The notes below the pieces were generated by a model that was not told the DNA's origin, searched no databases, and saw only the letters and a list, made by a program, of their open reading frames with translations. From positions 868,001 to 932,000 of the forward strand of contig NZ_WXUB01000002.1 of NCBI RefSeq assembly GCF_011799805.1: DNA of 64,000 bases, written 5' to 3'. Source of the stretch: Maribellus sediminis (GTDB taxonomy: Bacteria; Bacteroidota; Bacteroidia; Bacteroidales; Prolixibacteraceae). Below, piece by piece: positions 2,479 through 50,365 of this stretch (positions are counted from its first letter, which is position 1; every line of letters starts with the position of its first letter). The translations under genes and the position numbers were made by a program.

Positions 2479-4719
2479 ATGGGACTGAAGTGGTTTTTAT
2501 CCTCATTCATAATGCTTTGTATACTTACGATTGACGTTTCCGCACAAGGTCAATCGCCGGCCAAATGGGTAAATCCGTTTATCGGAACCACCAATTACGG
2601 AACTACCAATCCCGGAGCAATTGTTCCCCGTGGGATGGTGTCGGTAGTACCCTTCAACGTAGCCGGAAATTCAGAATTAAACAAACACGACAAAGATGCG
2701 GGTTGGTGGTCGACTCCCTATTCATGGGACAATAAGTATTTCACGGGATATTCGCACGTAAACCTTAGTGGTGTTGGATGCCCCGAACTTGGGGTTATTC
2801 TGCTAATGCCTACAAGCGGAGAAATTAACGCTGAATTCAGAGAATACGGTTCAGAGATGAGTAAGCAGGAGGCGCATCCCGGTTACTATTCTACCTATTT
2901 GAACAAGTACGATATTCAAACCGAAGTTTCGGCAACTGAAAGAACCGGAATCAGCCGATTTACTTTTCCTGCGGGTCAGTCGAATATTTTGATCGACCTC
3001 GGAAACGGACTGACCAACGAAAGCGGGGCATCTATAAAAGTGGTGAACGATCGCGAAATTGAAGGCTGGCGTATGACCGGAACATTTTGTTACAACGATG
3101 GTACCGAGCGTCCTGTTTATTTTGTAGCTCGTTTCAGTAGAGCAGCCGATGAATTTGGCGTTTGGAAAAAGATGCCAAAAATGAAAGCAGAAGCTGCATG
3201 GTCATCAACCAGCGATAAATTCAAATATTACAGGAATTTTCAGGCAGAAATGGCCGGCGACAGCATTGGTGCCTGGTTTACTTTCAATACAAAAGCCAAA
3301 GAGCAAATTCTGGTTGAAGTTGGCGTATCGTATGTCAGCATCGACAATGCAAGGCAGAATTTAAATGCCGAGACCAATAAGTTTGATTTTGAAGCTACAA
3401 AAAAACAAGCTGAAGATAAATGGAACGAAGCGCTTTCGACTATCACCGTAAAAGGCGGCACCGACGACCAGAAAACAGTTTTTTACACGGCTTTATATCA
3501 CATGCAGATACATCCAAATATTTTAAGTGATGTAAACGGTCAATACCCGGCCATGGAATCGTTTGAGATTAAAACCCGCGAAGATGGCGAACGTTACACC
3601 ACCTTCTCGCTTTGGGATACTTACCGGAATGTACATCCTTTCCTGAGTTTAGCTTTCCCCGAACAGCAGCTGAACATGGTGACATCGATGATTGAAATGT
3701 ACGACGAAAGCGGTTGGCTGCCACGTTGGGAACTCAACAGCACCGAAACCCACGTAATGGAAGGCGATCCTGCTCTTCCGGTTATTGTAGATACCTGGTT
3801 TCGCGGGATTAAGGATTTCGACATTGAAAAAGCCTACGCAGCCATGTACAAATCGGCAACAACACCGGGAGCCAAAAACAAAATCAGACCCGATATCGAC
3901 TTTTATAGTTCACACGGCTATGTTCCGCTGACTCAACCATACGACAACTCAGTTTCGCATGCATTGGAATATTATATTGCCGACTGGAACCTGGCGCAAC
4001 TGGCCAAAGCATTGGGAAAAGAAGCTGATTACGAGCGCTTCCTGAAACAATCGCAGGGCTGGAAAAATTATTACGATACTGAATTCGGGATTATCCGCCC
4101 AAAACTCGAAAGCGGTGAATTCCTGCCCGATTTTGACCCGAAACAGGGCGAAAATTTCGAACCAAGCCCCGGATTTCATGAAGGAAATGCCTACCAGTAT
4201 ACTTTCGCCACGCATCACGATATGGAGGGAACCATCAAGCTGAACGGCGGGAAAAGACAGTTTATTAATAAGCTGCAGGCAATATTTGACGACGGTCATT
4301 TTGATATGGCCAATGAACCCGATATTCATTATCCCTGGTTGTTTAACTATGTAAAAGGCGAAGAATGGCGTTCGCAGAAAGAAGTGAACCTGTTGATGGC
4401 CGAGTACTTTAAAAATGCGCCGGACGGACTACCCGGAAACGATGACACAGGTACTATGTCGTCGTGGATCGTTTATGCCATGATGGGAATTTACCCCGTT
4501 CTTCCGGGCGATATGAACTACGCCATCTCCTCCCCTGTTTTTGATGAAGTTATCCTTCAGCTCGACCCGAATTTCTATCCGGGAGAAACTTTTATCATCC
4601 GAAAAACCGGTGATTCTGATAAAATCAACACTATAAAGTTCAACGGGAAAAAAGTAAAAAGCTACTTTATCAATCATGCCGAACTGGTGAAGGGCGGAAC
4701 ACTGGAAATAATCCATTAA
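2479..4719 (+). CDS. GH92 family alpha-mannosidase (secreted)
   Basis: Glycoside hydrolase family 92; known members are Ca2+-dependent inverting exo-alpha-mannosidases acting on N-glycans, yeast mannan or related glycans. 746 aa from the ATG at 2479. Residues 1-23 form a signal peptide ending VSA-Q. The N-terminal beta-sandwich opens with KWVNPFIGT. The (alpha/alpha)6 catalytic domain carries the EGN motif (Glu568, expected catalytic acid) and GNDDTG from about 653 (carboxylates expected to serve as base). Closing motif SSWIVYAMMGIYPVLPG is typical. No lipobox, so periplasmic or secreted. A second GH92 gene follows 29 nt later. No SusC/SusD pair is adjacent, so the substrate cannot be read from context. 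Confidence 0.95.
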   Translation: MGLKWFLSSFIMLCILTIDVSAQGQSPAKWVNPFIGTTNYGTTNPGAIVPRGMVSVVPFNVAGNSELNKHDKDAGWWSTPYSWDNKYFTGYSHVNLSGVGCPELGVILLMPTSGEINAEFREYGSEMSKQEAHPGYYSTYLNKYDIQTEVSATERTGISRFTFPAGQSNILIDLGNGLTNESGASIKVVNDREIEGWRMTGTFCYNDGTERPVYFVARFSRAADEFGVWKKMPKMKAEAAWSSTSDKFKYYRNFQAEMAGDSIGAWFTFNTKAKEQILVEVGVSYVSIDNARQNLNAETNKFDFEATKKQAEDKWNEALSTITVKGGTDDQKTVFYTALYHMQIHPNILSDVNGQYPAMESFEIKTREDGERYTTFSLWDTYRNVHPFLSLAFPEQQLNMVTSMIEMYDESGWLPRWELNSTETHVMEGDPALPVIVDTWFRGIKDFDIEKAYAAMYKSATTPGAKNKIRPDIDFYSSHGYVPLTQPYDNSVSHALEYYIADWNLAQLAKALGKEADYERFLKQSQGWKNYYDTEFGIIRPKLESGEFLPDFDPKQGENFEPSPGFHEGNAYQYTFATHHDMEGTIKLNGGKRQFINKLQAIFDDGHFDMANEPDIHYPWLFNYVKGEEWRSQKEVNLLMAEYFKNAPDGLPGNDDTGTMSSWIVYAMMGIYPVLPGDMNYAISSPVFDEVILQLDPNFYPGETFIIRKTGDSDKINTIKFNGKKVKSYFINHAELVKGGTLEIIH

Positions 4720-10006: not shown

Positions 10007-10648
10007 ATGAACAATAATATTGAGATGAAGAATTCAGAAACATATTTATCAGAGCTCAAAGAGATCCGGAAAATGATGGAAGAATCCAGTCGCTTTCTTT
10101 CGCTGAGCGGATTGTCGGGTGTACTGGTTGGTATAATCGCACTGGTTGGTGCATACATCATCGGTCAATTCGTTTACGCTGATCCTGCTGCTCAGGCCGT
10201 TATAGTTACGCACGGATCTTTTACTACTGCAATCATTATTGCTGTAGTTGTTTTAGTGCTGTCACTTCTTACTGTAATACTTCTAACCTACCGTCGCGCA
10301 AAAAAAGCCGGAAAGAAAATATGGAACCGCGGTTCAAAACTTATGTTGCTGAACCTGGCAATACCTTTGGTAACAGGCGGGCTATTAATAATTATTTTCA
10401 TTAGGAATGACATTGTTGAAATCATTGCGCCCGGATGCCTTATATTTTATGGTTTGGCGCTCATCAACGCCGCAAAATTTACCCGTCAGGAAATTTTCTG
10501 GCTCGGAATATTTGAGGTTTCATTGGGATTGTTGGCCGCTTTATTCTCTTCGCTTGGATTGATATTCTGGGCAATCGGTTTTGGAGTACTGCATATTATT
10601 TACGGAATAGTAATGTATTTCAGGTACGAATACAACACAAAAGAATAG
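10007..10648 (+). CDS. Integral membrane protein of the wHTH-CreD locus
   Basis: About 213 aa. A soluble N-terminal segment of 30 residues (ETYLSELKEIRKMMEESSRFLSLSG) precedes six predicted membrane helices, among them GVLVGIIALVGAYIIGQFVY and FTTAIIIAVVVLVLSLLTVI. Three in-frame ATGs are possible (9977, 10007, 10025); I chose 10007 because homologous segments normally begin close to the ETYLSEL part. The gene ends 4 nt before the winged-helix gene, so they are translated together. No enzymatic motif seen. It may sense or transmit an envelope signal to the regulator, by analogy with membrane-protein/regulator pairs; that is unproven. Confidence 0.8.
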   Translation: MNNNIEMKNSETYLSELKEIRKMMEESSRFLSLSGLSGVLVGIIALVGAYIIGQFVYADPAAQAVIVTHGSFTTAIIIAVVVLVLSLLTVILLTYRRAKKAGKKIWNRGSKLMLLNLAIPLVTGGLLIIIFIRNDIVEIIAPGCLIFYGLALINAAKFTRQEIFWLGIFEVSLGLLAALFSSLGLIFWAIGFGVLHIIYGIVMYFRYEYNTKE

Positions 10649-10652
10649 TACA

Positions 10653-10949
10653 GTGAAAAGCAGTTTTCAAAATCTAAATAAAGCTTTCGAGAACAAAATC
10701 CGCTTGGGGATCATGTCGGTACTGTCGGTGAATTCGCGGGCATCCTTTAACGATTTAAAGGAGATGCTTGAATTGACCGACGGCAATCTCGCGAGCCACC
10801 TCAAATCACTTGAAAGTTCGGGATACATCAAAGTGATTAAAAGCTTCGTAGACCGAAAACCCAATACTAAATATGAAATTACTGATTCGGGTGCGGCTGC
10901 TTTCGAGAGTCATATTAAGGCACTTGAAGAAATATTAAAACAGATTTAA
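10653..10949 (+). CDS. Winged-helix DNA-binding regulator (MarR/ArsR-like)
   Basis: 98 aa, a single winged-helix domain with no effector domain. The core SVNSRASFNDLKEMLELTDGNLASHLKSLESSGYIKVIKSFVDRKPNTKYEITDSGAAAF contains the recognition helix (DGNLASHLKSLE) and the wing (RKPNTKYEIT), as in the transcriptional-regulator family found next to CreD in Bacteroidota. The apparent start is GTG at 10653. Paired inverted repeats ACTTTG-N5-CAAAGT flank this gene on both sides, before its operon and before creD, so autoregulation and control of creD are likely. Confidence 0.88.
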   Translation: MKSSFQNLNKAFENKIRLGIMSVLSVNSRASFNDLKEMLELTDGNLASHLKSLESSGYIKVIKSFVDRKPNTKYEITDSGAAAFESHIKALEEILKQI

Positions 10950-10964
10950 ATTTTTTTAATCATT

Positions 10965-10983
10965 CACTTTGAAATTCAAAGTA
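10965..10983. promoter_or_regulatory. Inverted-repeat operator upstream of creD
   Basis: ACTTTGAA-A-TTCAAAGT (10966-10982) is a perfect palindrome around one central base. It shares half-sites and spacing with 9935-9953. It lies 24 nt before the creD ATG, where it would overlap the promoter or transcription start. Confidence 0.55.
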
Positions 10984-11006
10984 AAAACTCAAAAAACAAA
11001 TAACAT

Positions 11007-12329
11007 ATGGAACCAAAAGAAATGATTCGCGACGCACAAAAGTCGATCAACTGGCAAATCACCTTTAAAGTATTTATTATTGGCCTGATTGCCATCGTCC
11101 TGCTCATCCCCAAATTCATGATTATTGAATTGATTAGCGAGCGACAACAAACCGCCGAGATCACCAACCACGAAGTAATGCAAACCTGGTCACTGGCACA
11201 AACCGTTCGCGGTCCGGTACTCGTAGTTCCCTACATTAAACGAAGTTTCGACAGCGAAGGTAAAATACTGAATGAAGACATCATGTCGACCTACATTTTG
11301 CCAAAAACACTGAATATTAAAGGGGAAATCGCACCCGAAAAACGTAAACGCAGTATCTATGAAACAGTAGTCTACGAGTCAGGTATCAATGTGGCAGGCC
11401 AGTTTGAAAACCCCGATTTTAGCAGCTTAAAAATCGAATCTAAAGATATTTTGTGGGAAAAGGCAAGAGTATTGGTAGCCATCAGCGATTTGCGTGGTAT
11501 TAACGATAAGATCACCCTAAAATGGAACGATTCCACCTACGCATTTATACCTGGCATGGACGATCACCAGGTTGGAAGCAACGGTATTTCTCTGCCACTT
11601 TCTAATTTATCGGCCCAGAGTTTTCCGGCTGATTTTAGTTTTAAGCTGCAATTAAAAGGATCGGAATCGCTCAACTTTGCTCCGCTTGGTGAAACCACTG
11701 AAGTTATGCTGCAATCGTCGTGGAACGACCCGGGATTTACCGGCAGCTTTTTACCGACTGATCACAGCATCAGCAACGATGGTTTTACTGCCAACTGGAA
11801 AGTGCTGAACTTTAACCGCAATTTTCCGCAAATGTGGAAAAACGCAGAGTATCGGATGACCGACGCTGATTTTGGTGTGCGTCTGGTTGAAGTGGCCGAC
11901 CACTATCAAAAGAGTTCGCGTGCTGCAAAATACGGTATCCTCATCATCCTGTTTGTGTTTCTGGCCTTCTTCCTGAACGAGATCATCACCAAAAAACGGG
12001 TACATCCGTTTCAGTACATCCTGGTTGGTTTTTCCGTGCTAATCTTTTACCTTTTGTTACTTTCCATTTCAGAACAAATCGGATTCAACCTGGCCTACCT
12101 GATTTCAGCAGTCGCTGTGCTGCTCATGGTCTTGTTGTATTCGCGTTCGTTCCTGAAAACGTGGGGAAACGCGCTCATTCAAACAATGATTCTGACCTTT
12201 TCCTTCGGATTCATATTTGTGTTGATGCAGCTGGAAACGCTGGCACTTCTGGTAGGAAGTATCGGTTTGTTTGTGGTACTTGCACTGACGATGTTCTTTA
12301 CCCGGAAAATTAACTGGTACGGCGAGTGA
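11007..12329 (+). CDS. creD: CreD family inner-membrane protein
   Basis: 440 aa CreD (inner membrane protein of the E. coli CreBC regulon; linked to envelope integrity and colicin E2 tolerance). One N-terminal helix (about 21-43), a long periplasmic domain (about 44-305, with SLAQTVRGPVLVVPY and the conserved end NFNRNFPQMW), then five C-terminal helices beginning AAKYGILIILFVFLAFFLNEI. ATG at 11007. In this lineage creD sits with a winged-helix regulator and a membrane protein instead of a CreBC two-component system. The operator just upstream suggests it is a regulated single-gene unit. Molecular function unknown. Confidence 0.9.
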   Translation: MEPKEMIRDAQKSINWQITFKVFIIGLIAIVLLIPKFMIIELISERQQTAEITNHEVMQTWSLAQTVRGPVLVVPYIKRSFDSEGKILNEDIMSTYILPKTLNIKGEIAPEKRKRSIYETVVYESGINVAGQFENPDFSSLKIESKDILWEKARVLVAISDLRGINDKITLKWNDSTYAFIPGMDDHQVGSNGISLPLSNLSAQSFPADFSFKLQLKGSESLNFAPLGETTEVMLQSSWNDPGFTGSFLPTDHSISNDGFTANWKVLNFNRNFPQMWKNAEYRMTDADFGVRLVEVADHYQKSSRAAKYGILIILFVFLAFFLNEIITKKRVHPFQYILVGFSVLIFYLLLLSISEQIGFNLAYLISAVAVLLMVLLYSRSFLKTWGNALIQTMILTFSFGFIFVLMQLETLALLVGSIGLFVVLALTMFFTRKINWYGE

Positions 12330-20321: not shown

Positions 20322-21431
20322 TTATCTAAGTAATGATTTGATGGTTTTAGCCAGTTGGCTTGAAAAATTGAAAAGCAACTGTCGCGAGTTTTGCATCGCC
20401 TCCTGAAGATTCACCGGTCCGTTAACAAGCGAAAAAATTCCATCGAAGGCTTCCGAAGCTTCTACTTCTACTTTACCGCCAATAGCGATCACCGGTTTAT
20501 TAAACCGGCGTGCAACTTTAGCAACGGCAAAAGGTGCCTTGTTGTTTAAAGTCTGACTATCGATTTTTCCCTCGCCCGTAATGACCAGGTCGGCCCACTT
20601 TACCTGTTCCGAAAATTGAAGTTGCTCCAGAACAAAATCAGCTCCCGGGACGATCTCTGCATTTAGAAAAGTCAGCAGAGGCAAGGAAATTCCTCCGGCT
20701 GCGCCCATTCCCGGAATATCTCTCAAGGTCCTTTCGGCATGCATTTCAAGAACCGTAGCCCAGTTTTCCAGGCCTTTTTCAAGTTCTTGTACGTCTTCTG
20801 GCGCAGCTCCTTTTTGCGGGCCAAAAACAGCTGCAGCCCCATTAACTCCCAACAAGGGATTATCAACGTCGCAAACAATATTTATTTTCAGATGTGCAGG
20901 TAATTCCTTTTTTACAATAGAATGGACTTTTCCCAGATTGCGGCCATTACCGCTTAATTCGGTTCCGTTTTTATCAAAAAACTTAAATCCGAGCGCTTCC
21001 ATCAGGCCCATTCCGCCATCAACTGTTGCGCTTCCACCAATCGCCAGAAAAATTTCTTCGCATCCTTTGCTGATCGCATCCAAAATCAACTGCCCTGTAC
21101 CGAATGAGGATGCTATCATGGGATTTAATTCGTACATCGCCACAAGCTTCATTCCCGATGCATCGGCCATTTCAATAATCGCCTTTTTTCCCGAGATGGC
21201 ATATTTGGATGCTACTGTTTGTCCCAAAGGTCCTGTAACATTTAAACTAACAGTTTGGGCATTAAAATTTCGGGCCAAAACTTCTCCCGTAAAATCTCCA
21301 CCATCAGCAACCGGTAGTTTTCTGATCTCGAAATAGGAAGAACAGGCCAGAAATGCCTCTTCAACCGTATCGGCAAAATCAAAAGCATTCAGGCTTCCTT
21401 TCATCGAATTTGGTGCTATCAGTATTTTCAT
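20322..21431 (-). CDS. Glycerate 2-kinase (GlxK/GarK family)
   Basis: 369 aa. ATP-dependent kinase converting glycerate to phosphoglycerate (2-phosphoglycerate in GarK/GlxK). Family motifs: KILIAPNSMKGSLNAFDFA at the N-terminus, LPVADGGDFTGEVL, LAIGGSATVDGGMG, GAAGGISLPLL and LVITGEGKIDSQT near the C-terminus. Length is normal. It starts 8 nt after the RSH stop and is followed by the small TPR gene, so the three are one operon. Glycerate could come from glyoxylate metabolism or from osmolyte breakdown (the glucosylglycerate cluster at 42-48.6 kb releases glycerate); that link is inference. Confidence 0.93.
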   Translation of the reverse strand: MKILIAPNSMKGSLNAFDFADTVEEAFLACSSYFEIRKLPVADGGDFTGEVLARNFNAQTVSLNVTGPLGQTVASKYAISGKKAIIEMADASGMKLVAMYELNPMIASSFGTGQLILDAISKGCEEIFLAIGGSATVDGGMGLMEALGFKFFDKNGTELSGNGRNLGKVHSIVKKELPAHLKINIVCDVDNPLLGVNGAAAVFGPQKGAAPEDVQELEKGLENWATVLEMHAERTLRDIPGMGAAGGISLPLLTFLNAEIVPGADFVLEQLQFSEQVKWADLVITGEGKIDSQTLNNKAPFAVAKVARRFNKPVIAIGGKVEVEASEAFDGIFSLVNGPVNLQEAMQNSRQLLFNFSSQLAKTIKSLLR

Positions 21432-40137: not shown

Positions 40138-40695
40138 ATGGAAATTAAAATTACAACAAAGCAAATTCTGAAAGTGCTGCAAATACTTTCATGGATAATT
40201 TTTATCGGTTTATGTATCGAAGCCGGAGGAATTGTTGTCAATACCGTCATTATATTCTTCAGAAAGCCATCAGTCGCCTTCAATTTTTGGGACGAAACCG
40301 CATACCTCACCGATCTTTACCAGTTCGATCATGGACATTTCTTTGCTATTGCACTCATAATGATCATTGTATCGGTTTTGAAGGCAATATTATTTTACTT
40401 AATCGTGAAATTATTTACAGATAAACAGCTGAACATAACACGCCCGTTTAATATTGAGTTGAAAAATTTCATTATCAATTTGTCCAGTCTTTCTTTTGGT
40501 ATCGGTTTGTTCTCCTATTTTGGAATGAAATATTCGGTATGGCTTACTACCCAGGGAGCACAAAAAGCTGACCTGAAGGCCTTGCATCTCTCCGGAGCTG
40601 ATGTATGGATTTTTATGGCAATTATACTTTTTGTTATCGGGCAGGTTATGAAAAGCGGCATTGAAATGCAAAACGAAAACGAATTGACGATTTAA
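40138..40695 (+). CDS. DUF2975 membrane protein (copy 2)
   Basis: 185 aa, four helices. It shares with copy 1 the opening pattern TKQILKVLQILSWIIFIG and the closing pattern FVIGQVMKSGIEMQNENELTI (copy 1: FVISQIFKRGVEIQSENDLTV), so it arose by tandem duplication and then diverged strongly in the middle. Its HTH partner immediately downstream is broken, so this copy is either orphaned or uses the regulator of copy 1. Confidence 0.85.
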   Translation: MEIKITTKQILKVLQILSWIIFIGLCIEAGGIVVNTVIIFFRKPSVAFNFWDETAYLTDLYQFDHGHFFAIALIMIIVSVLKAILFYLIVKLFTDKQLNITRPFNIELKNFIINLSSLSFGIGLFSYFGMKYSVWLTTQGAQKADLKALHLSGADVWIFMAIILFVIGQVMKSGIEMQNENELTI

Positions 40696-40698
40696 ATC

Positions 40699-40903
40699 AC
40701 GGCAATAAAATTCATTTTGAGTTACAAATTGCCGTCACCAGGATTTACTCAGAAAACTTTCCGAAGAAAATGAATATACATTGGGCAAGCTTTCGATATT
40801 GAAAACAGGAAAAGCCAAAGCCATTCGTTTCAGCACACTGGAAGCCATTTGTGAAGCGCTGGATGGCCAGCCGGGAGATATCCCGGAATATTCAGCTGAT
40901 TAA
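40699..40903 (+). pseudogene. Remnant of a second HTH regulator (decayed duplicate)
   Basis: From 40745 to the TAA at 40901-40903 one frame reads LLRKLSEENEYTLGKLSILKTGKAKAIRFSTLEAICEALDGQPGDIPEYSAD, nearly identical to the C-terminal two thirds of the regulator at 39907. The position of the start codon is ACG (40699-40701) followed by GCAATA, as in ATGGCAATA of copy 1, but the frame then shifts and meets TGA (40718-40720). No in-frame ATG remains. The start is lost and the first third scrambled, while the rest is still highly conserved. Confidence 0.8.
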
Positions 40904-40927
40904 ATAAGAGGCAGTAACAAAATGAAA

Positions 40928-40960
40928 AGGGATGACATCTTTTTAAAAGATGTCATCCCT
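40928..40960 (-). terminator. Terminator of the creatininase gene
   Basis: AGGGATGACATCTTTT and AAAAGATGTCATCCCT (40928-40943, 40945-40960), 16 pairs on paper, with TTTTCATTTTG after it on the minus strand. A GAAGCTTGAAGCCTGCAGCTTGC word repeat lies between it and the gene end. Confidence 0.75.
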
Positions 40961-41000
40961 CTCTTTCTGGAAGCTTGAAGCCTGCAGCTTGCAACTCCAA

Positions 41001-41876
41001 CTATTGTTTCGTTTTTAAAGGATTCTTAGTTTGTTCAAAAAACTGTTTCTGCAGTTCAGGAACAACAGTATCAGCTTTTACCAGGCGAATCATCTCAATC
41101 AATTGACTTACCGTTTCGTTGATTAAGAGTTCACCTGCTTCGGCATTGGCCTTCGAACCGTCGCCGCCATAATGGTTAGGATAACTGGCATACCACCAAA
41201 TTCCGGTGTAAACGTATTTTAGTTTATTCATCCGATTCTGATCAACACCCGACTGTTGTCCGGCCCGGTCGATATGCACCAAAGTTGGCTGTGCAGCAGC
41301 CATTTCCGAGGTTTCGCTGTTTCCCGCATGCGAGTCATATTTATCATCCTGTGTCAACGCTTCAGCTTTTTCGTTCACTTCTCGATTATCTTCGGGCCTG
41401 AACCAGTACAAAGCATAATTACGCCGTTCCGACAATTGTGCCATTCCGAAAAAGTTCAGAAAAGCGTTATTGCCACCGTGACCGTTTACGATGATGATCT
41501 TCTCGAAACCGTTTCGACTGAGTTCGTCCAGCGTTTCCTGTAACATAAGCCAGATCAGTTCAGGCGAATAGGAAATCGTTCCGGGCTGATGCCGGGCTTC
41601 GTTAATCTGGCTAAAATAATACCACGGGAAAACAACCGTATACTCCTGTTCGGCAGCACGAAGGGCATACTCGCGAGCCATATACAAATCGGTACCAAGT
41701 GGCAGGTGCGGCCCATGCTTTTCCAATACGCCTATTGGTATAATGCAGGTTTTAGAACTTTTTTCAACAGCCTTAGCAAAATCGGGTGCGGTAAGTTCTT
41801 CCAAACGATAAGGCAGCTCCTGTGCCGACAACGAAAATGAAAGTAGCAAAAGGAAAAGTTGAATTAGTTTTTGCAT
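41001..41876 (-). CDS. Exported creatininase family protein
   Basis: 291 aa. Signal peptide 1-18 (LIQLFLLLLSFSLSAQ). Creatininase-type amidohydrolase fold with metal-site motifs PIGVLEKHGPHLPLGTD (Glu and His), IIVNGHGGNNAFL and the Glu of HAGNSETSEMA. The family includes creatininase and deformylases of the riboflavin/F420 and mycofactocin pathways, but a signal peptide points to a periplasmic amidase of unknown substrate. Single gene, divergent from the glycosyltransferase cluster, with a hairpin terminator downstream. Confidence 0.88.
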   Translation of the reverse strand: MQKLIQLFLLLLSFSLSAQELPYRLEELTAPDFAKAVEKSSKTCIIPIGVLEKHGPHLPLGTDLYMAREYALRAAEQEYTVVFPWYYFSQINEARHQPGTISYSPELIWLMLQETLDELSRNGFEKIIIVNGHGGNNAFLNFFGMAQLSERRNYALYWFRPEDNREVNEKAEALTQDDKYDSHAGNSETSEMAAAQPTLVHIDRAGQQSGVDQNRMNKLKYVYTGIWWYASYPNHYGGDGSKANAEAGELLINETVSQLIEMIRLVKADTVVPELQKQFFEQTKNPLKTKQ

Positions 41877-41966
41877 TGAAATTAGGTTTTAGTTAAACTT
41901 TCTCTAAAAATAGAATGTTCGAATTGTTTTAGCAATGATTTGCTAATTTTAAACCAAACTAAGAAT

Positions 41967-43253
41967 ATGCAGATACTAATTGCCCACAGTCATCTGAATC
42001 CCGGCGGAGTAACGCGGATCATCGAATCGCAGATCGACAGCCTGAAAAACATACCCGTAAAAGTGTTGGTTGGAACCTGCCCCAATCCTGAAACCATTAC
42101 CTCGCGCGGAGCAGAACTGGTAATTATGGGGGAGCTGAATTACCTGGAGCATAAAACATACAGCGATGATGAAGCCAAAGAAATGCTGGACACCGTGCTT
42201 GAAAAATTGCGGCAACAGATTACAAAGGATACTGTAATTCATTTCCATAACCTTAATTTGGGCAAAAATCCGATCGTAACATTTGCGGTTTACCTGCTGG
42301 CTAAAGAAGGTGTTCGGGTGTTTAATCATGCACACGATTTTGCTGAAGACCGCCCGTCGAATCAAACTTTTCTCGAAGAAATTATCAGCGATATTTTTTC
42401 ACACAACCTCAGCGAGGTGCTTTATCCCAATCTGCCAAATTACCAGTTTGGTGTGCTGAATTCGTTCGACCTCGAAAGGCTGCTTTCCTATGGTGTGGAA
42501 GCCGATCGAATTGAGTGGCTGCCCAATCCGGTTACTTTTTCATGTACGATTGAGAATCCTGACAAGGAAGCTTCGAAAAAGACGATCTGCGAAGAACTTA
42601 AAATCAGTGACGAGAAGCTGCTGATCACGTATCCTGTGCGTGTGATCCAGCGAAAAAACATTGGAGAATTCATCCTTTTATCGGTGCTATTCGACCATAT
42701 CACCAACTTTGTGGTAACACAGCCGCCTCAAAATCCGGTTGAACGCGAAATGTACCGGCAGTGGGTAAAATTCTGCGAAGACCATGAAATTGATGTGGTG
42801 TTTGAAGCCGGCAATAAAGTGGATTTCGAACAATTGCTTTGTGCCTCCGACTTTTGCATTACCACAAGTTACCGCGAAGGATTTGGCATGGTTTACCTCG
42901 AACCATGGTTGCTAAATACACCGGTGGTTGGCCGCGACATCGATTATATTACCAAGGATTTCAAAGATGACGGGTTTACTTTTCCAACGCTTTTTTACAA
43001 AATAAATATCCCGGAAATAAAGATCGATTTTAAAGATCTGAACATGAAAATGCAAATGGAGATCATTTGTGACCTGAAATCGGGCCGAATAGAAAAACAG
43101 AAGATGTTTGAACAAAATCCGATCCTCACCACTTTGTTTAATAAGGTTGCTGATCAGGTAATCGAACAAAATAAAGAAATCATAAAAAGCAACTACTCTT
43201 TGCAAGGCTATGGAAGTAAACTTCAGAACCGATATAAAAAGCTGGTTGGATAA
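41967..43253 (+). CDS. GT4-like glycosyltransferase (first gene of the osmolyte cluster)
   Basis: 428 aa from the ATG at 41967. GT-B fold: N-terminal half starting QILIAHSHLNPGGVTRIIESQIDSL, C-terminal half with VIQRKNIGEFILLS and the E-x7-E region YREGFGMVYLEPWLLNTPVVG that binds the nucleotide sugar in GT4. No membrane segment. Its last 44 nt overlap the HAD gene. Grouped with a GpgS-like enzyme and a GH13_18 phosphorylase, so I infer a role in extending glucosylglycerate, as mannosylglucosyl-3-phosphoglycerate synthase does in Petrotoga. Sugar donor unknown. Confidence 0.82.
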   Translation: MQILIAHSHLNPGGVTRIIESQIDSLKNIPVKVLVGTCPNPETITSRGAELVIMGELNYLEHKTYSDDEAKEMLDTVLEKLRQQITKDTVIHFHNLNLGKNPIVTFAVYLLAKEGVRVFNHAHDFAEDRPSNQTFLEEIISDIFSHNLSEVLYPNLPNYQFGVLNSFDLERLLSYGVEADRIEWLPNPVTFSCTIENPDKEASKKTICEELKISDEKLLITYPVRVIQRKNIGEFILLSVLFDHITNFVVTQPPQNPVEREMYRQWVKFCEDHEIDVVFEAGNKVDFEQLLCASDFCITTSYREGFGMVYLEPWLLNTPVVGRDIDYITKDFKDDGFTFPTLFYKINIPEIKIDFKDLNMKMQMEIICDLKSGRIEKQKMFEQNPILTTLFNKVADQVIEQNKEIIKSNYSLQGYGSKLQNRYKKLVG

Positions 43254-44127
43254 GCTGGAAAAACTGGCGCCACAGCCAACCACTTTCTGTCCCAACTTAA
43301 AAACTGATTCTCCCGATCCTATAAAAGCTGTCATTTTCGACATTTACGGCACACTCCTCATTTCCGCTTCAGGCGATATCGACCAGGCTTCGCTGTCTTC
43401 GGAAAATATCCGGACGGCCATGCAGGCAGGTGGTTTCGATCTCGACAAATGTGAACCCGTCACCTGTTCGTTTTTACTCGAGCAACTGCAAGTGAAAATA
43501 AAGGAGCAGCATGAAGCCCTAAAAAAACAGGGACATCCCTACCCCGACGTAGATATTTTTAAAGTGTGGACCGACATGTTTCGTGCAGCAGAAGAAAAGG
43601 GATTGCTGAAGTTGACCGGCGAAGAATCGTGGACAGATACCATTATTGTTTTCGAACTGCTGAGTAACCGCGTTTATCCCATGCCCGGAATGAAGGAAAT
43701 TCTGCTTTGGATAAAAGACAAAGGTTTGCCAATGGGCATTGTTTCCAACGCTCAGTTTTATACCCCGGTTATTATGAATTATTTCCTGAACGGTGAATTT
43801 TCGACAAAACAGGAAATCGATCTGTTTGAAAAGGACCTTTCGGTTTTTTCATTTAATGAACTCAGGGCAAAACCCGACACGGCACTTTTCGAAAAGTTTC
43901 TTCCAACACTAAAAAGTAAATACGGAATCAAGCCCTACGAAGCCATTTTTGTGGGGAACGACATGCTAAAAGACGTTGTCACCGCAAAAAAATCAGGCCT
44001 GCGGACCGTGTTATTTGCGGGCGATGAACGGTCGCTTCGTTTGCGCGAAGACGACGACCGTGTACGACGCATTTTCCCCGATTTTATTATTAATGACCTT
44101 TCACAACTAAAAGATATTTTAAAATGA
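43210..44127 (+). CDS. HAD-superfamily hydrolase (candidate phosphatase of the cluster)
   Basis: 305 aa. HAD core begins AVIFDIYGTLL with nucleophile Asp44. Motif II is GIVSNAQ (Ser), motif III is RAKPDTALFEKFL (Lys), motif IV is IFVGNDMLKDVVTAKKSG (Asp-x4-Asp). At +2 from the nucleophile there is Tyr46 instead of the Asp usual in phosphatases; DxYGT is typical of 2-haloacid dehalogenases but is also seen in other HADs. Overlap with both neighbours (44 nt and 4 nt) shows tight co-expression. The place in the cluster suggests removal of the phosphate from a glycosyl-3-phosphoglycerate; the motif makes this uncertain. Confidence 0.85.
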   Translation: MEVNFRTDIKSWLDKLEKLAPQPTTFCPNLKTDSPDPIKAVIFDIYGTLLISASGDIDQASLSSENIRTAMQAGGFDLDKCEPVTCSFLLEQLQVKIKEQHEALKKQGHPYPDVDIFKVWTDMFRAAEEKGLLKLTGEESWTDTIIVFELLSNRVYPMPGMKEILLWIKDKGLPMGIVSNAQFYTPVIMNYFLNGEFSTKQEIDLFEKDLSVFSFNELRAKPDTALFEKFLPTLKSKYGIKPYEAIFVGNDMLKDVVTAKKSGLRTVLFAGDERSLRLREDDDRVRRIFPDFIINDLSQLKDILK

Positions 44128-45575
44128 AGCTCAACGAACTCCGAATAGGTATAATCCACTCATTAATTGGCAAGAACGACGGTGTTTCCATCGTAATCGA
44201 CCAAACGGTTGAAGCCATGGTAAAGCACCTCGATATTAACCTGGGGAATTTTTTCTTCCTGGCAGCTCACTCGTCGCCTCGTTTCAACGCCCAAACCAAC
44301 GATGTATTCTGGCACAAAAGCGAAGCACACAAACATATACTTCTCAACTTCAACAATCCTGATACCGAAGGCTTGGATGAACTGATTCATGAAAATGCCC
44401 TGTACGCCAAACAGGTGATCCAGGAGTGGGTTGACGAAAATGATATCGACCTGATCATCGCTCACAATACCTCGCATCCCTACAATTTCATCACAGCTGT
44501 TGGATTGGGTTATTACATTGAAGAGTTAAGAAACGAAGATATCATTTGGCCGAAATTGATGGTTTGGTGGCACGATTCGTATTTCGAGCGCGATATTTTT
44601 TCAAATCCAAACCCGGTCATCAAAAAGTATTTAAAATACCTGCCCGGAAGCACCTATGTAAACGGTATTGCCTTTATAAACAAGCAGCAAATTGAACTGG
44701 GTAAAAAGGTATTTCAACAGGACAACAGCGCCATAATGGAGAAGTTTTTTAAGCTTCGTACAACGGTTGTTCCAAACACCACTGAAATTCCATGGGAATG
44801 GGAGCACCTTGATCCTGAATCGGAAACGATTATTTGTCCGCCACAGGATAATTACAACAATGATTTCATGAAAGACATTGGTCTTGTTCAGCAGGTTGAG
44901 AGCCGGGGATTTACAATGGATGATACGGTAATTCTGTTGCAACATACCCGTGTTGTTCCGCGGAAAAAGATTGAACTGGCCATCGATCTGGCTTTTGAAC
45001 TCGAGAAGAAATTCAAAAAGAACAATAAGAATAAGTGTGTGGCAGTAATTGTGAGTGGCCACTCAGGCGACGAGCAGAACCAGTACCTAAACAACCTTTA
45101 TGTTCATTACTCTGAACTTTGCAAGGCAAATCCCGACAGCAATGTGGTACTTATTTTTGGCGAGCACAATATTCTGTCGCATCGCGATATTATCGTGGAC
45201 AAGAAATTCTACAATTTTGCTGAAATCCCTTCCATAATAGCAGCTTACGGCGGAATCGGGACCTACTTCAGCAATGTGGAAGGTTTTGGAAACAACCTTT
45301 TGGAAATGATGTCGTTTGCACTTCCGGCGGTGATCAACAAATACGAAGTGTACAAGGCCGAGATTGAACAGTACGGCTTCGATCTACCAGCTATCGACGG
45401 AGGTGGTGTAACCGATGAGCTGGTTGATTCTGCTTACCGTTTGCTTACCGATATTCCTTACCGAAACAACGTTGTAAAGCACAACCTGAAAGTACTGAAA
45501 GAAAAACTCGATCATAAAATTATTGCCGACAAGCTTGAACCAATTATAAAAAGCATGTACATGCGAGATTTGTAA
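44124..45575 (+). CDS. Glycosyltransferase, GT4-like (second in the cluster)
   Basis: 483 aa, starts inside the HAD stop (ATGA). N-terminal half: LRIGIIHSLIGKNDGVSIVIDQTVEAM, then DLIIAHNTSHPYNF. C-terminal half: TRVVPRKKIELAIDLAFELEKKF, GEHNILSHRDI and the E-x7-E site NVEGFGNNLLEMMSFALPAV. Soluble. It is clearly a paralogue in fold of the 41967 enzyme, but longer and diverged. May be an alternative or sequential transferase in the same pathway (compare the MggS and MggA routes of Petrotoga). Followed by a 136-nt gap before the GpgS-like gene. Confidence 0.82.
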   Translation: MKLNELRIGIIHSLIGKNDGVSIVIDQTVEAMVKHLDINLGNFFFLAAHSSPRFNAQTNDVFWHKSEAHKHILLNFNNPDTEGLDELIHENALYAKQVIQEWVDENDIDLIIAHNTSHPYNFITAVGLGYYIEELRNEDIIWPKLMVWWHDSYFERDIFSNPNPVIKKYLKYLPGSTYVNGIAFINKQQIELGKKVFQQDNSAIMEKFFKLRTTVVPNTTEIPWEWEHLDPESETIICPPQDNYNNDFMKDIGLVQQVESRGFTMDDTVILLQHTRVVPRKKIELAIDLAFELEKKFKKNNKNKCVAVIVSGHSGDEQNQYLNNLYVHYSELCKANPDSNVVLIFGEHNILSHRDIIVDKKFYNFAEIPSIIAAYGGIGTYFSNVEGFGNNLLEMMSFALPAVINKYEVYKAEIEQYGFDLPAIDGGGVTDELVDSAYRLLTDIPYRNNVVKHNLKVLKEKLDHKIIADKLEPIIKSMYMRDL

Positions 45576-45711
45576 GAAAAATCAGCCTTTATTAACATTT
45601 CGAAATAATATCGCCCTTAATTTGGATTTTATCCAGATTACCAAAAGGATTGATTATATTAGGGTACTATCGAATTTCAGACAAAAATTTAAGCAAAAAA
45701 AGTAACTAATT

Positions 45712-46929
45712 ATGGGTGATTTTTATCAGAACGGATTTGTTGCCACCTTACATAACCTGCGCGCCAGGCCTTATGAAGAGTTAGAACAGAAATTGGAAAA
45801 ATTCAGCAAGCGGCGACCAATCGGACTGATCATCCCATCCTTGTATTCCGAACTTTCGCGACCCGCACTTAAAGACATTGTAAATGTTTTAAAGGATATT
45901 CCTTATGTCTCTGAAATTGTTATCGGACTCGACCAGGCCGATGATTATCAGTACAAAAATGCCCTGGAATATTTTTCGGTTTTGCCACAGCACCACCGCA
46001 TACTTTGGAACGATGGTCCGCGAATGACCGAGCTTAAGAAGAAACTGGCTTCAAAAAAAATCGACACATCGGTTCCGGGAAAAGGACGAAATGTGTGGTT
46101 CTGTTTTGGGTACATGATTTCTTCGGGAAAATCGGAAGCCATTGCTTTGCACGACGCCGATATTATTACCTACAACCGGGAATTGCTGGCCCGCCTGGTT
46201 TACCCCGTTGCCGATCCAACATTTAATTTCAAGTATTGCAAGGGGTATTATTTCAGAACCGACGACGATAAAATGCACGGCCGGGCAGTTCGCCTTTTGG
46301 TTACGCCTTTACTGCGAACACTAAAAAAATTACTGGGCCACCACACTTACCTCGAATACCTCGATAGTTTCAGGTATCCGCTGGCCGGTGAGTTTTCGAT
46401 GCGTGCCGATATTATTAAAACCATTCGTATTCCATACGACTGGGGACTCGAGATCGGTATCCTATCAGAGGTTGAACGCAACAATGCCCTTAACCGGGTT
46501 TGCCAGGTTGAAATTGCCGACCGTTACGACCATAAACACCAGTCGCTTTCGGTGGAAGATGCCGAACGTGGCCTGTCGAAAATGAGCCGTGATATTTCGC
46601 GTGCCATCTTTGCCAAACTGGCTTCGGATGGCGTGACTTTGAGCCCCGAGTTTTTCAGAACATTAAAAGCGACCTACTGGCGGATCGCTCTCGAATTTGT
46701 TGAATTGTACAAAGCCGATGCCTCAATGAATGGATTGAGCTACGATTTTCACAAAGAGGAAGAAGTGATCGATCTGTTTGTAAAGAACGTTTACCAGTCG
46801 GGAATTGATTTTCTGGTAAATCCTGACAACGTGCCGCTAATGCCAAGCTGGAAACGTGTTCAGAGTGCTTTCCCTGATATTTTGGAAGAGCTGAACCAGA
46901 TTGTAGAAGACGATAACAACATCATTTAA
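45712..46929 (+). CDS. gpgS: Glucosyl-3-phosphoglycerate synthase-like glycosyltransferase (GT81)
   Basis: 405 aa GT-A enzyme. GT81 members move glucose from a nucleotide sugar to 3-phosphoglycerate. Key features: RRPIGLIIPSLYSELSRPALKDIV, the metal site HDADIITYNRELLARLVYP (Asp-Ala-Asp), GKGRNVWFCFGYMISSGKS, and acceptor-loop residues RYPLAGEFSMRADIIKTIRIPYDWGLEIGILSE, all at the places expected for GpgS. An N-terminal leader NGFVATLHNLRAR is also typical. 14 nt upstream of the phosphorylase gene. Together they would make and break glucosylglycerate, a compatible solute. Confidence 0.85.
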   Translation: MGDFYQNGFVATLHNLRARPYEELEQKLEKFSKRRPIGLIIPSLYSELSRPALKDIVNVLKDIPYVSEIVIGLDQADDYQYKNALEYFSVLPQHHRILWNDGPRMTELKKKLASKKIDTSVPGKGRNVWFCFGYMISSGKSEAIALHDADIITYNRELLARLVYPVADPTFNFKYCKGYYFRTDDDKMHGRAVRLLVTPLLRTLKKLLGHHTYLEYLDSFRYPLAGEFSMRADIIKTIRIPYDWGLEIGILSEVERNNALNRVCQVEIADRYDHKHQSLSVEDAERGLSKMSRDISRAIFAKLASDGVTLSPEFFRTLKATYWRIALEFVELYKADASMNGLSYDFHKEEEVIDLFVKNVYQSGIDFLVNPDNVPLMPSWKRVQSAFPDILEELNQIVEDDNNII

Positions 46930-46943
46930 CACCTGCAAAAAAT

Positions 46944-48641
46944 ATGGCTAATCCCACTTCTTTCAGAACAACAATTGAGAGCCGGCTGCGCTTTATCTAT
47001 AAAGAAAATTACAAGGGAAAAATTACTGATGACCTGCTTTCAGTAATTGAAAAATACGAACAAATAGACGGGAGTTCAACCAAATGGGACGAAAAAGATG
47101 TGGTTTTGATTACCTATGGCGACAGCATTAAAACCACCGCTGAACAACCTTTGAAAACCTTGCACCATTTCCTGAATAAGCAACTAAAAGAACAGCTGAC
47201 AGTAGTGCATATTCTGCCCTTTTTTCCCTTCAGCAGCGATGATGGTTTTTCGGTCATCGATTTCCGTGAAGTTAATCCAGAACTGGGAAGTTGGGATGAT
47301 GTTACTGTTTTAAACAACGACTTCGATTTGATGGCCGACCTGGTGATCAACCATGCATCGAGTAAAAGCCGGTGGTTTCAGAATTTTCTAAAACAGGAAG
47401 GTACCGGAAAGGATTATTTCATTTGTGAAGATCCGGGAAAAGACCTATCACAGGTTACACGCCCGAGAAGCACTCCACTACTAACACCATACAAAACTGC
47501 CGGCGGAATTAAACATGTATGGACCACTTTTAGTGCCGACCAGGTTGATTTAAATTTCGCGAATCCGGCATTGCTGGTTGAAATGATGGACATATTGCTG
47601 GGGTATATTTCGAAAGGTGCACGCATTATTCGGCTCGATGCCATCGCCTTTCTCTGGAAAATAGTTGGCTCAACATGTTTGCATTTGCCCGAAACGCATG
47701 AAGTGGTAAAACTGATGCGCGATGTGGCTGAATACATCAATCCTTCGGTGGTTATTCTTACTGAAACCAATGTTCCGAATAAGGAAAATCTGAACTATTT
47801 CGGCAATGATGACGAAGCTCATATGGTTTACCAATTTAGTCTCCCTCCACTGCTTTTACATGCCTTACACACCGGGAACTCAAGTTATTTAACCACATGG
47901 GCAAAAAGCCTCCCTCAACTTGAAGGCGACAAAACTTTTTTCAATTTTACTGCCTCGCACGACGGGATTGGGGTGCGCCCACTTGAAGGCTTGCTCCCTG
48001 ACGGTGAAAAACTTGCCCTAGTTGAAAACATGCAAAAGTTCGGCGGAAAGGTGAATTACAAATCCAACCCGGATGGCAGCACGAGTCCGTACGAACTGAA
48101 TATTACTTATTTTGACGCATTAAAAGGGACATATAAAGGAGAAGACGAACTCCAGGTCAAACGGTTCCTGGCTTCGCAAATCGTAATGATGAGTTTTGCA
48201 GGTGTTCCGGCTTTTTACATTCACAGTTTGACCGCCACTCCAAATTACCTGGAGGGAGTTGCAGAAACCGGCCACAACCGCACCATCAACCGCAGAAAAT
48301 GGCAATTGCATGAGCTTGAAGAGATTCTGAATTCAGAGACACCACAAAAAACAGTATTCAACGAATTAAAAAGATTAATTGCCATTCGTAAAAAGCAGGC
48401 TGCGTTTCATCCGAACGCAAAGCAGGAAATTCTGGATTTGGGAAGTGATTTCTTTGGATTGATACGTAAATCTAAGGATCAATCGATTTTGTGCATCGCC
48501 AATCTTTCAGCTGAAATTAAAAGCGCTGAATGGCCGGATGAATATTCCTTTGATTTAATAACAGGATCCAAAATTCAAGCTAAAGAACTGGCTCCCTATC
48601 AATGTTTGTGGTTAACGGGACCTGCGGTTTTTAAAGGTTAA
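46944..48641 (+). CDS. GH13_18 sugar phosphorylase, probable glucosylglycerate phosphorylase
   Basis: 565 aa sucrose-phosphorylase-like GH13 enzyme. Nucleophile Asp232 (RLDAIAFLWK), acid/base Glu274 (ILTETNVP), transition-state Asp340 (ASHDGIGVRPLEG). LPFFPFSSDDGFSVIDFREV is the subfamily's first conserved region. Family members split sucrose, sucrose-6-phosphate, glucosylglycerol or glucosylglycerate with phosphate, giving glucose-1-phosphate. The GpgS-like neighbour 14 nt upstream makes glucosylglycerate (as for E. coli YcjM) the best guess. The cell could then recover glucose-1-P and glycerate when osmotic stress ends; a glycerate kinase is encoded at 20322. Confidence 0.88.
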   Translation: MANPTSFRTTIESRLRFIYKENYKGKITDDLLSVIEKYEQIDGSSTKWDEKDVVLITYGDSIKTTAEQPLKTLHHFLNKQLKEQLTVVHILPFFPFSSDDGFSVIDFREVNPELGSWDDVTVLNNDFDLMADLVINHASSKSRWFQNFLKQEGTGKDYFICEDPGKDLSQVTRPRSTPLLTPYKTAGGIKHVWTTFSADQVDLNFANPALLVEMMDILLGYISKGARIIRLDAIAFLWKIVGSTCLHLPETHEVVKLMRDVAEYINPSVVILTETNVPNKENLNYFGNDDEAHMVYQFSLPPLLLHALHTGNSSYLTTWAKSLPQLEGDKTFFNFTASHDGIGVRPLEGLLPDGEKLALVENMQKFGGKVNYKSNPDGSTSPYELNITYFDALKGTYKGEDELQVKRFLASQIVMMSFAGVPAFYIHSLTATPNYLEGVAETGHNRTINRRKWQLHELEEILNSETPQKTVFNELKRLIAIRKKQAAFHPNAKQEILDLGSDFFGLIRKSKDQSILCIANLSAEIKSAEWPDEYSFDLITGSKIQAKELAPYQCLWLTGPAVFKG

Positions 48642-48660
48642 AAACCTCCGAAACTCCAGT

Positions 48661-48690
48661 AAAAAAAAGGGGCGCTGATTGCACCCCTTT
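48661..48690 (-). terminator. Terminator of araB
   Basis: On the minus strand AAAGGGGTGC, loop AATCA, GCGCCCCTTT (G-U wobble), then a long T run. Lies between convergent genes and could serve both. Confidence 0.8.
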
Positions 48691-48694
48691 CCAA

Positions 48695-50365
48695 TTATGC
48701 TGTAAAATCGAATTCTACAAATTTTCCAAACTTCTGGTATTTCTCGTAGAGTACTTTGTACTTCTCTACGTTTTCAGGAATCGGATGGTATTCTGTTTCA
48801 ATACCACCTCCCATATTTTTCTGAGCTTCTGAAGTGCTGGCATAAACACCCGCTGCAACCGCTGCTGCCATGGCCGAACCCAGGGCACAAGCCTGTTCCG
48901 AACGTGCCACTTTAATCGGCATATCCAGCACATCGGCAACAATTTGCATTACCAGTGGCGATTTTTTGGCAACACCGCCTAAGGCGATCACCCCATCAAT
49001 ACGGACGCCTTCAGAAATAAATCGATCGTTAATGGCACGTGAACCAAATGCTGTAGCCTCAACCAAAGCACGGAAAATACGAGGCGCATCAGAACCAAGG
49101 TTCAATCCGGCAATCGCTCCTTTTAAAGCCTGGTTGGCATCCGGTGTACGACGGCCATTCATCCAGTCGAGTGCGACTACCCCACTTTCACCGATTGGTA
49201 TTTTTGCTGCTTCTTCGCTGAGTTTCGCGATTATTTTATCAGAAGTCTCATCCATCAGCTTTTGCTTTGTAGCCTCGTCAATCAGCGTACTTTCAGCCAG
49301 AATATTTTTCATTGGCCATTCGAGTACACGTTTAAACCAGGCATAAATATCGCCAAATGCCGATTGTCCGGCTTCCAGACCAACCATTCCCGGGACAATT
49401 GAACCATCAACCTGACCACAGATTCCGGCCACCACATTTTCGCCGACTTCATCAGCCGGTGCGATTAACATATCGCAGGTTGAAGTTCCCATTACTTTCG
49501 ACAGGTAATAAGGCTCAATTTCGGCGCCAACTGCACCCAGGTGAGCATCGAAAGCCCCAACACCAACAACTACATCGGTTGAAAGACCCAGTTTCTGAGC
49601 CCATTCTTCGGAGAGTGTTCCTGCAGCAACATCGCAGGTGAAGGTTTCTTTAAAAAGACGATCGCGCAAACCGGCCAGCATTGGATCAAGCGCAGTCAGA
49701 AATTCTTCTGATGGCAAACCATCAAATGCTTCGTGCCACATCGCTTTGTGCCCAGCTGCACAACGGCTTCTTTTTAAGGTTTTTGGATTGGTATCTCCCG
49801 TAATTACTGCCGGAATCCAGTCGCAGTGTTCTACCCACGAGTAGGCTGCACGATAAACTGCAGCATCTTCGCGGATCACATGTAACAGCTTAGCCCAAAA
49901 CCATTCCGAAGAATAAATTCCGCCTTCGTATTTTGTAAAATCAATCTCCCATTTTTTAGCAAGCTGGTTGATTTCTTCTGCTTCTTTTACTGCTGTATGA
50001 TCTTTCCAAAGCACAAACATCGCGTTAGGATTCTCTTCAAAACCGGCCGTCAATGAAAGTGGTGTTCCTTTTTCATCAACAGCAACCGGAGTTGAACCTG
50101 TAGTATCCACAGAAATTCCAACCACATTTTCCGCAACGCCTTCGGGCGCCTGCTTTAATGCTTCAACAATTGTATATTCCAATCCTTCCAAATAATCCTT
50201 CGGATGCTGACGGAACTGATTGTTTGGAGCATCACAATACATTTGTTTTTGCCATCGCGGATAATTAAAAACAACACTGGCAACTTCTTCTCCAGTTTCA
50301 ACATTTACAATTAACGACCTGACCGAATCCGATCCATAGTCTAAACCAATCGTGTATTTTGCCAT
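48695..50365 (-). CDS. araB: Ribulokinase
   Basis: 556 aa FGGY-family kinase phosphorylating L-ribulose to L-ribulose-5-phosphate. N-terminal ATPase lobe opening TIGLDYGSDSVRSLIVN; GISVDTTGSTPVAVDEKGTPL; the AraB-specific region PNAMFVLWKDHTA; SRCAAGHKAMWHEAF; GTSTCDMLIAP; GLEAGQSAFGDIYAWFKR; and the C-terminal IALGGVAKKSPLVMQIVADVLD. Second gene of araD-araB with 87 nt between. No araA, arabinose regulator or transporter is in the window. Confidence 0.96.
   Translation of the reverse strand: MAKYTIGLDYGSDSVRSLIVNVETGEEVASVVFNYPRWQKQMYCDAPNNQFRQHPKDYLEGLEYTIVEALKQAPEGVAENVVGISVDTTGSTPVAVDEKGTPLSLTAGFEENPNAMFVLWKDHTAVKEAEEINQLAKKWEIDFTKYEGGIYSSEWFWAKLLHVIREDAAVYRAAYSWVEHCDWIPAVITGDTNPKTLKRSRCAAGHKAMWHEAFDGLPSEEFLTALDPMLAGLRDRLFKETFTCDVAAGTLSEEWAQKLGLSTDVVVGVGAFDAHLGAVGAEIEPYYLSKVMGTSTCDMLIAPADEVGENVVAGICGQVDGSIVPGMVGLEAGQSAFGDIYAWFKRVLEWPMKNILAESTLIDEATKQKLMDETSDKIIAKLSEEAAKIPIGESGVVALDWMNGRRTPDANQALKGAIAGLNLGSDAPRIFRALVEATAFGSRAINDRFISEGVRIDGVIALGGVAKKSPLVMQIVADVLDMPIKVARSEQACALGSAMAAAVAAGVYASTSEAQKNMGGGIETEYHPIPENVEKYKVLYEKYQKFGKFVEFDFTA

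Follow-up and report, generated by a model that had tools for sequence, protein, structure and literature searches.

A conserved five-gene cluster of Bacteroidota predicted to make and recover a glucosylglycerate-type compatible solute

The window analysed here, a stretch of 64,000 nt from Maribellus sediminis (Bacteroidota; NCBI RefSeq assembly GCF_011799805.1, contig NZ_WXUB01000002.1, positions 868,001 to 932,000 of the forward strand), contains at positions 41967-48641 a cluster of five genes that are real and conserved together. All five lie on the plus strand. GT4-1 (P0001, 41967..43253) encodes a GT-B fold family-4 glycosyltransferase with a weak GT4 match, HAD (P0002, 43210..44127) a HAD family IA protein with a HAD match above the cut-off, and GT4-2 (P0003, 44124..45575) a remote member of the family of mannosylglucosylglycerate synthase (MggS). 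They are followed by GpgS (P0004, 45712..46929), for a glucosyl-3-phosphoglycerate synthase in the GpgS_Meth form of 400 residues, and by the gene of a putative GH13_18-type glucosylglycerate phosphorylase (GGaP; P0005, 46944..48641). The first three genes overlap, GT4-1 with HAD by 44 nt and HAD with GT4-2 by 4 nt, and gaps of 136 nt and 14 nt separate GT4-2 from GpgS and GpgS from the phosphorylase gene. An original prediction, made from the DNA letters, had placed the five genes here with the 14-nt spacing and had read them as two GT4-like enzymes, a HAD protein, a GpgS-like enzyme and a GH13_18 phosphorylase, and the open reading frames (ORFs) together with the Pfam and NCBIfam matches agreed with it.

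Glucosylglycerate (GG)-type sugar acids protect cells against salt stress, and the cluster very probably encodes a compatible-solute cycle centred on GG. In such a cycle, GpgS would join nucleoside diphosphate (NDP)-glucose and 3-phosphoglycerate to give glucosyl-3-phosphoglycerate (GPG), from which HAD would take off the phosphate, before or after the addition of a second sugar by GT4-1. The solute stored would be GG, a glycosyl-GG with mannose or glucose as the added sugar, or both. When low salt is regained or under starvation, GGaP would cleave GG with phosphate, releasing glucose-1-phosphate together with D-glycerate, which a glycerate kinase would feed back into glycolysis. GT4-2 may either add the second sugar to GG directly, the MggS direction, or, running in reverse, strip that sugar with NDP for the attack by GGaP. 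We favour the whole of this explanation, in which GG is made via its phosphate, probably becomes one sugar longer and is recovered by phosphorolysis, and we hold it to be reasonably likely. The sequence itself establishes the enzyme families and their active-site residues, and likewise the co-occurrence and order of the genes; the reactions in this organism, like the nature of the second sugar, the HAD activity and the direction of GT4-2, are inferred.

P0005 matched the GH13 alpha-amylase family of Pfam above the cut-off, and its best NCBIfam match was sucrose phosphorylase (217.7 bits, cut-off 334.4). Its active site comprises D232 in RLDA as the nucleophile and E274 in TETN as the acid/base, and the determinants for glycerate are present as TETN 273-276, including Asn276, and as Glu384 in PYE. 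According to an excerpt of PMC7178133, a (T/S)ETN motif at beta-5 and a conserved loop-A Glu, which is Gln in most other clades, are the hallmarks of GGaP, in which Asn275 and Glu383 bind glycerate. From the near-equal numbering, we read Asn276 and Glu384 of P0005 as the probable counterparts of these two residues. In an alignment of 79 phosphorylases (the window, YcjM of E. coli, 73 fetched loci and four of the second gene layout described below; 3 of the 76 locus sequences were omitted as too short), TETN, Glu384, the RLDA Asp and the acid/base Glu274 were kept in all 79, YcjM included, which makes sucrose specificity unlikely. YcjM, a characterised GGaP, is 44% identical to P0005 over its length. 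P0005 thus appears to be of the glucosylglycerate type, strict glucosylglycerate activity being a prediction.

The second core enzyme, P0004, matched NF040724 (GpgS_Meth) from end to end (residues 3-403 on positions 2-400 of 402, 370.6 bits). Its DxD motif is D148-A-D150, of which D150 was kept in 91/91 rows and D148 in 90/91 of an alignment that includes the GpgS of loci L107-L109 (1 of 88 locus sequences was omitted as too short). Three proposals made at the outset were upheld by these comparisons: the kinship of the phosphorylase with GG-degrading enzymes, by both published determinants (TETN and loop-A Glu384); the GpgS identity, by the end-to-end family match and the intact DxD; and the encoding of synthesis and recovery in one locus, by the presence there of both GpgS and a GGaP-type phosphorylase.

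The distribution of the cluster was examined in the best 80 of 409 genome loci with a GpgS relative, 24 of which belong to Bacteroidota by their record titles. The complete order GT4-1, HAD, GT4-2, GpgS, phosphorylase was found in 19 of these 24 loci, and 23 have one or more of the three upstream genes, L033 having none; L025, L029 and L030 are interrupted by contig ends, and L031 is without both GT4 genes. The nearest named GpgS relatives in this sample came from Draconibacterium (89-91% identity) and Maribellus. The 56 non-Bacteroidota loci (Marinobacter, Ferrimonas, Planctomycetes and others) contained GpgS with no match to GT4-1, HAD or GT4-2, and 55 of them contained the phosphorylase. 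Within a sample of 198 genomes of the order, GT4-2 (E <= 1e-15) occurred in 9 genomes and GpgS (E < 1e-100) in the identical 9 (co-occurrence 9/9 against 0/189), and seven more genomes gave weak, partial GpgS_Meth matches. In a class sample of 198 genomes, a GT4-2 match at E <= 1e-20 was obtained in the own genome only, and in a phylum sample of 395 genomes relatives of GT4-1 and of GT4-2 were found in the same five at E <= 1e-10. Since GT4-2 and GpgS share the same 9 of 198 genomes and the gene order recurs in 19 of 24 loci, the cluster is not a chance grouping. A gene for a small membrane protein precedes gpgS in L026, L027, L028 and L033, lying between GT4-2 and gpgS in three of them, and a VTT domain was found in the tested copy of this protein (L111).

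The same five functions (GpgS, GT4-1, HAD, an MggS-like GT4 and GGaP) recur in Bacteroidota in a second layout, represented by L106-L109 and L118, with identities to the window of 30-33% for GT4-1, 31-35% for HAD and 48-52% for GGaP. It differs from the window in having a GpgS of the PRK13915 type (the cut-off was passed by all four GpgS, from L107-L109 and genome G648), an MggS-like enzyme nearer to the MggS model, and two gene units. In three genomes (L107, L108, L109) GpgS/GT4-1/HAD runs against MggS-like/GGaP on the other strand, and in the fourth, G648, the two sets are on separate contigs. This split suggests that one unit serves synthesis and the other recovery (or the handling of GG), and it predicts which of the enzymes belong to which purpose. 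The GpgS/GT4-1/HAD set of G648 lies next to genes for an MscS channel and for a BCCT transporter, which are typical of osmotic stress. In L118, MscS (3251-4069, minus strand) and BCCT (10321-11940, plus strand) flank GpgS-GT4-1-HAD, and the gene separating the channel from HAD is ferritin-like. An M20-family peptidase/deacetylase-like gene heads the gpgS unit in L107 (12657-13850, minus strand), L108 (333-1523) and L118 (8606-9805, minus strand); no full M20-like ORF was seen within the stretch of L109.

Both glycosyltransferases gave weak GT4 matches in Pfam and NCBIfam, below the curated cut-offs, and retain the general marks of GT4 enzymes, the EX7E motif and the nucleotide-binding Arg/Lys residues. 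These are E303-E311 and R224/R228/K229 in GT4-1 (numbered from the codon after ATG), and E386-E394 and R276/R280/K281 in GT4-2, which also has H150-D151 and E155-R156; E386/E394, R276, R280 and K281 of GT4-2 were kept in 22/22 rows. GT4-2 aligned over its full length with MggS-like proteins from four other genomes of the phylum at 28-29% identity and shares HD...ER, RVVPRK, SGDE and EGFGN with them, so that at the sequence level it is a distant member of the MggS family; its search against solved structures gave no match at E 0.001. GT4-1 matched part of the MggS model NF041101 (30.1 bits, cut-off 640) and is homologous to GT4-2 by profile comparison (hhalign 96.6%), and there was no MggA model among the NCBIfam matches of the cluster proteins. 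The predicted structure of GT4-1 is confident (pLDDT 92.3), and its top Foldseek neighbours include GlgM, MshA and sucrose-phosphate synthase, which use phosphorylated acceptors. We take this likeness as a hint, because the query TM score was about 0.6 and WaaG, BshA and others ranked near. GT4-1 may be considered a candidate for a second glycosyltransferase acting on phosphorylated glucosylglycerate, in an MggA-like role.

The original prediction had read the two GT4 enzymes as a sign of a product longer than GG. The relationship of GT4-2 to MggS, though distant, and its alignment over the length of MggS-like proteins strengthen this idea, and we consider a longer product somewhat likely. The parts of the prediction that concerned the added sugar, a synthetic role of both enzymes and HAD as the phosphatase were not settled, and the prediction as a whole is partly supported. 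The GT4-1 and HAD genes overlap in 20 of the 21 loci with both (starts chosen by script), and in the 21st they form one frame. In the type strain of D. orientale (L019:6246-8405), GT4-1 and HAD appear as a single ORF of 719 aa, owing to a one-base deletion about 25-30 codons before the GT4-1 stop, which is either a lesion or a sequencing error; a GT4-1/HAD fusion was rejected as functional evidence on this ground.

HAD is probably the phosphatase that acts on GPG (or glycosyl-GPG). P0002 keeps the nucleophile D44 and S179, K221 and D255, invariant in 21/21 rows from both layouts, and it is the sole phosphatase candidate within the cluster. L031 retains HAD, GpgS, GGaP and a glycerate kinase with no GT4 genes in the locus, which indicates that HAD is linked with GpgS and not just with GT4-1. 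No match to TIGR01486, the GpgP/MPGP family, was obtained with P0002, and the best score in its own genome was 11.8 bits, with none above noise. The predicted structure of P0002 is confident (pLDDT 91.1). Two relatives of HAD from Planctomycetes (L125:6056-7012 and L126:6180-7136, both minus strand) carry Ser where the nucleophile Asp would stand (SVYGT); their neighbours are unrelated by eye, and these proteins are perhaps non-catalytic.

The breakdown direction is favoured for GGaP because glycerate kinase genes lie downstream of it. Of the 23 Bacteroidota loci with upstream genes, 11 have such a gene after that of the phosphorylase, no more than 1.5 kb away and in 6 of these cases within 200 nt; the two kinases scored, from L028 and L031, pass TIGR00045. 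In the window, the glycerate kinase gene (20322..21431, minus strand; PF02595 and TIGR00045 above the cut-offs) is outside the cluster at a distance of about 20 kb, and no PF02595 match other than its product was found in the genome.

Several observations weigh against the proposed cycle. The score of P0004 is below the curated equivalog cut-off of 700 bits, so the name GpgS is given by family and not by equivalog; no match in the 198 genomes of the order sample reached this score. GT4-2 scored 53.7 bits against NF041101, far below the cut-off of 640, and the three scored MggS-like relatives, at 241-258 bits, are also under it. In P0002, Tyr46 replaces the general acid/base Asp (D44-x-Y46-G-T48) in 21/21 rows, and the DxDx(T/V) motif I of HAD-superfamily phosphatases is thus lacking in all of them. 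Motif IV reads GNDMLKD, in which D251 and D255 are invariant and Asn250, again in 21/21 rows, stands at the place of the usual first metal Asp by alignment with 2hoq (for the roles of the HAD catalytic Asp motifs, see the excerpt of PMC8069645). The 50 rows listed as fold neighbours of P0002, with query TM scores of 0.42-0.52, comprise phosphatases as well as dehalogenases, epoxide hydrolases and engineered enzymes, and the fold search therefore does not discriminate among them. None of the enzymes of the cluster is a clear candidate for taking off the outer sugar. Finally, the pathway is patchy: in the order sample, G370 of the same genus has no GT4-2 and a weak, partial GpgS match, and G268 of the same family has neither GT4-2 nor GpgS, while the L033 genome, a metagenome-assembled genome (MAG), has GpgS and none of the three upstream genes.

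We regard it as unlikely that the cluster makes plain GG only and that the two GT4 proteins are mere neighbours serving another product, such as an envelope or storage glycan. Such a reading would suit L031, with its HAD-GpgS-GGaP and glycerate kinase, and the 55 of 56 non-Bacteroidota loci that combine GpgS and GGaP with no GT4-1 or GT4-2 match; nor was a GT4-2-like gene found in six such non-Bacteroidota genomes searched whole. However, both GT4 genes hold their places in the shared gene order in 19 of 24 Bacteroidota loci, relatives of the two are met again in other families of the phylum, there together with a GpgS of another type, GT4-2 belongs to the MggS family, and the L031 genome itself (G765, a MAG) retains an MggS-like gene of 217 bits elsewhere; GT4-1 was not found in G765 in a search that had no positive control. 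Petrotoga mobilis reportedly has two parallel routes to mannosylglucosylglycerate (MGG), one through MggA and one through MggS. A similar pair of routes here, with GT4-1 (MggA-like) and HAD working on the phosphorylated acceptor and GT4-2 (MggS-like) on free GG, both in synthesis, is a tentative alternative, which fits the MggS relationship of GT4-2 and its homology to GT4-1, the overlap of GT4-1 and HAD and their staying with GpgS when the locus splits, and the nearness of the GT4-1 model to GlgM, MshA and sucrose-phosphate synthase. Yet in the split loci GT4-2 is found beside GGaP, away from the synthase, and GT4-1 is no more than a candidate member of MggA. A role of GT4-2 mainly in recovery is possible, though we lean against it. 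A more far-reaching reading, which we hold to be unlikely, is a self-contained cycle with two distinct arms in one cluster. GpgS, GT4-1 and HAD, as a phosphatase with a non-canonical Tyr/Asn pair, would carry out phosphorylated synthesis, and a reversed MggS-family GT4 would take part in recovery. If this were true, the outer sugar would come back as NDP-sugar, GGaP and glycerate kinase would yield glucose-1-phosphate and phosphoglycerate, and much of the activation energy would be salvaged.

For HAD, the proposed phosphatase role competes with a doubtful one, that of a dehalogenase- or epoxide-hydrolase-type hydrolase or a non-catalytic partner of GT4-1, in which case GPG would be dephosphorylated by an enzyme encoded elsewhere. 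The invariance of Tyr46 and Asn250, the presence of L-2-haloacid dehalogenases and cis-epoxysuccinate hydrolases among the high-ranked structural neighbours, and the distant Planctomycete relatives that lack even the nucleophile speak for this; but the nucleophile Asp, the Ser, the Lys and D255 are all invariant, HAD adjoins GpgS even where the GT4 genes are missing, and no MPGP-type phosphatase is found in the genome. HAD would be either an unusual phosphatase or the sign of another, missing one. In mycobacteria, GpgS initiates a polymer of the methylglucose lipopolysaccharide type. GG is named as an acceptor in the mycobacterial polymer pathway in an excerpt of PMC4555173. A glycerate-primed polysaccharide or glycogen-like polymer, which had been offered as an alternative at the outset, found no support in the neighbourhood and is very improbable here, as no polymer-type gene was recognised in the cluster or in the conserved neighbouring clusters inspected, and GGaP and glycerate kinase point to small-molecule turnover.

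The GpgS-GGaP core is of a known kind, since the pairing is already published (excerpts of PMC7178133 and PMC10873239). In the GpgS-GpgP-GGaP system of Marinobacter and others (GGaP: EC 2.4.1.352), GpgS and phosphorylase are 59-62% and 45-52% identical to those of the window and are encoded in the order found there, which holds for 55 of the 56 non-Bacteroidota loci. GPGS, GPGP and GGAP occur together in 198/250 Marinobacter isolates (excerpt of PMC10873239). In L055 and L063, the only two loci of other phyla scored, the gene before GpgS encodes an MPGP-family HAD-IIB phosphatase above the cut-off, whereas in the window the HAD protein is of type IA and lacks the canonical pair of Asp, and two GT4 enzymes are present. 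In L055 and L035 the phosphatase is preceded by a P-loop protein with a length of about 300 aa; it is glycerate-kinase-like by eye, with no Pfam match in L055. The synthesis of MGG in Petrotoga, through MggA and MggS, resembles the window in combining GpgS with GT4 enzymes. Rhodopirellula baltica is also an MGG producer (excerpt of PMC3694870). The window differs from both systems in the low MggS score of GT4-2 (53.7 of 640 bits) and in the phosphorylase and HAD of its cluster. YcjM of E. coli shares the TETN and PYE determinants of P0005 but adjoins an ABC transporter and other sugar enzymes, with no GpgS annotated in the 25 kb inspected. No such five-gene Bacteroidota cluster appeared among the titles listed by searches of open-licence papers, and the Bacteroidota form, with five genes, an MggS-family GT4-2, a second GT4 and an odd HAD, looks undescribed. 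Bacteroidota would hereby gain a predicted GG-type osmolyte, with the genes for making and unmaking it in one cluster. The in vivo role of GGaP is stated to be unresolved in the excerpt of PMC7178133, and this joint arrangement makes it testable in the cultured genus Draconibacterium.

The cluster is bounded upstream by a creatininase-like gene on the other strand (41001-41876) and downstream by a convergent ribulokinase-like gene (48695-50365), both named by the appearance of their sequences. A search of 40500-49500 against Rfam gave nothing at the gathering score, and a scan for sigma-70 promoters and terminators gave no excess over shuffled sequence. At 41924-41951, 5' of GT4-1, we noted by eye the pattern TTG, 17 bases, TAATTTTA, which resembles the Bacteroidota promoter consensus, a type outside the scope of the sigma-70 scan.

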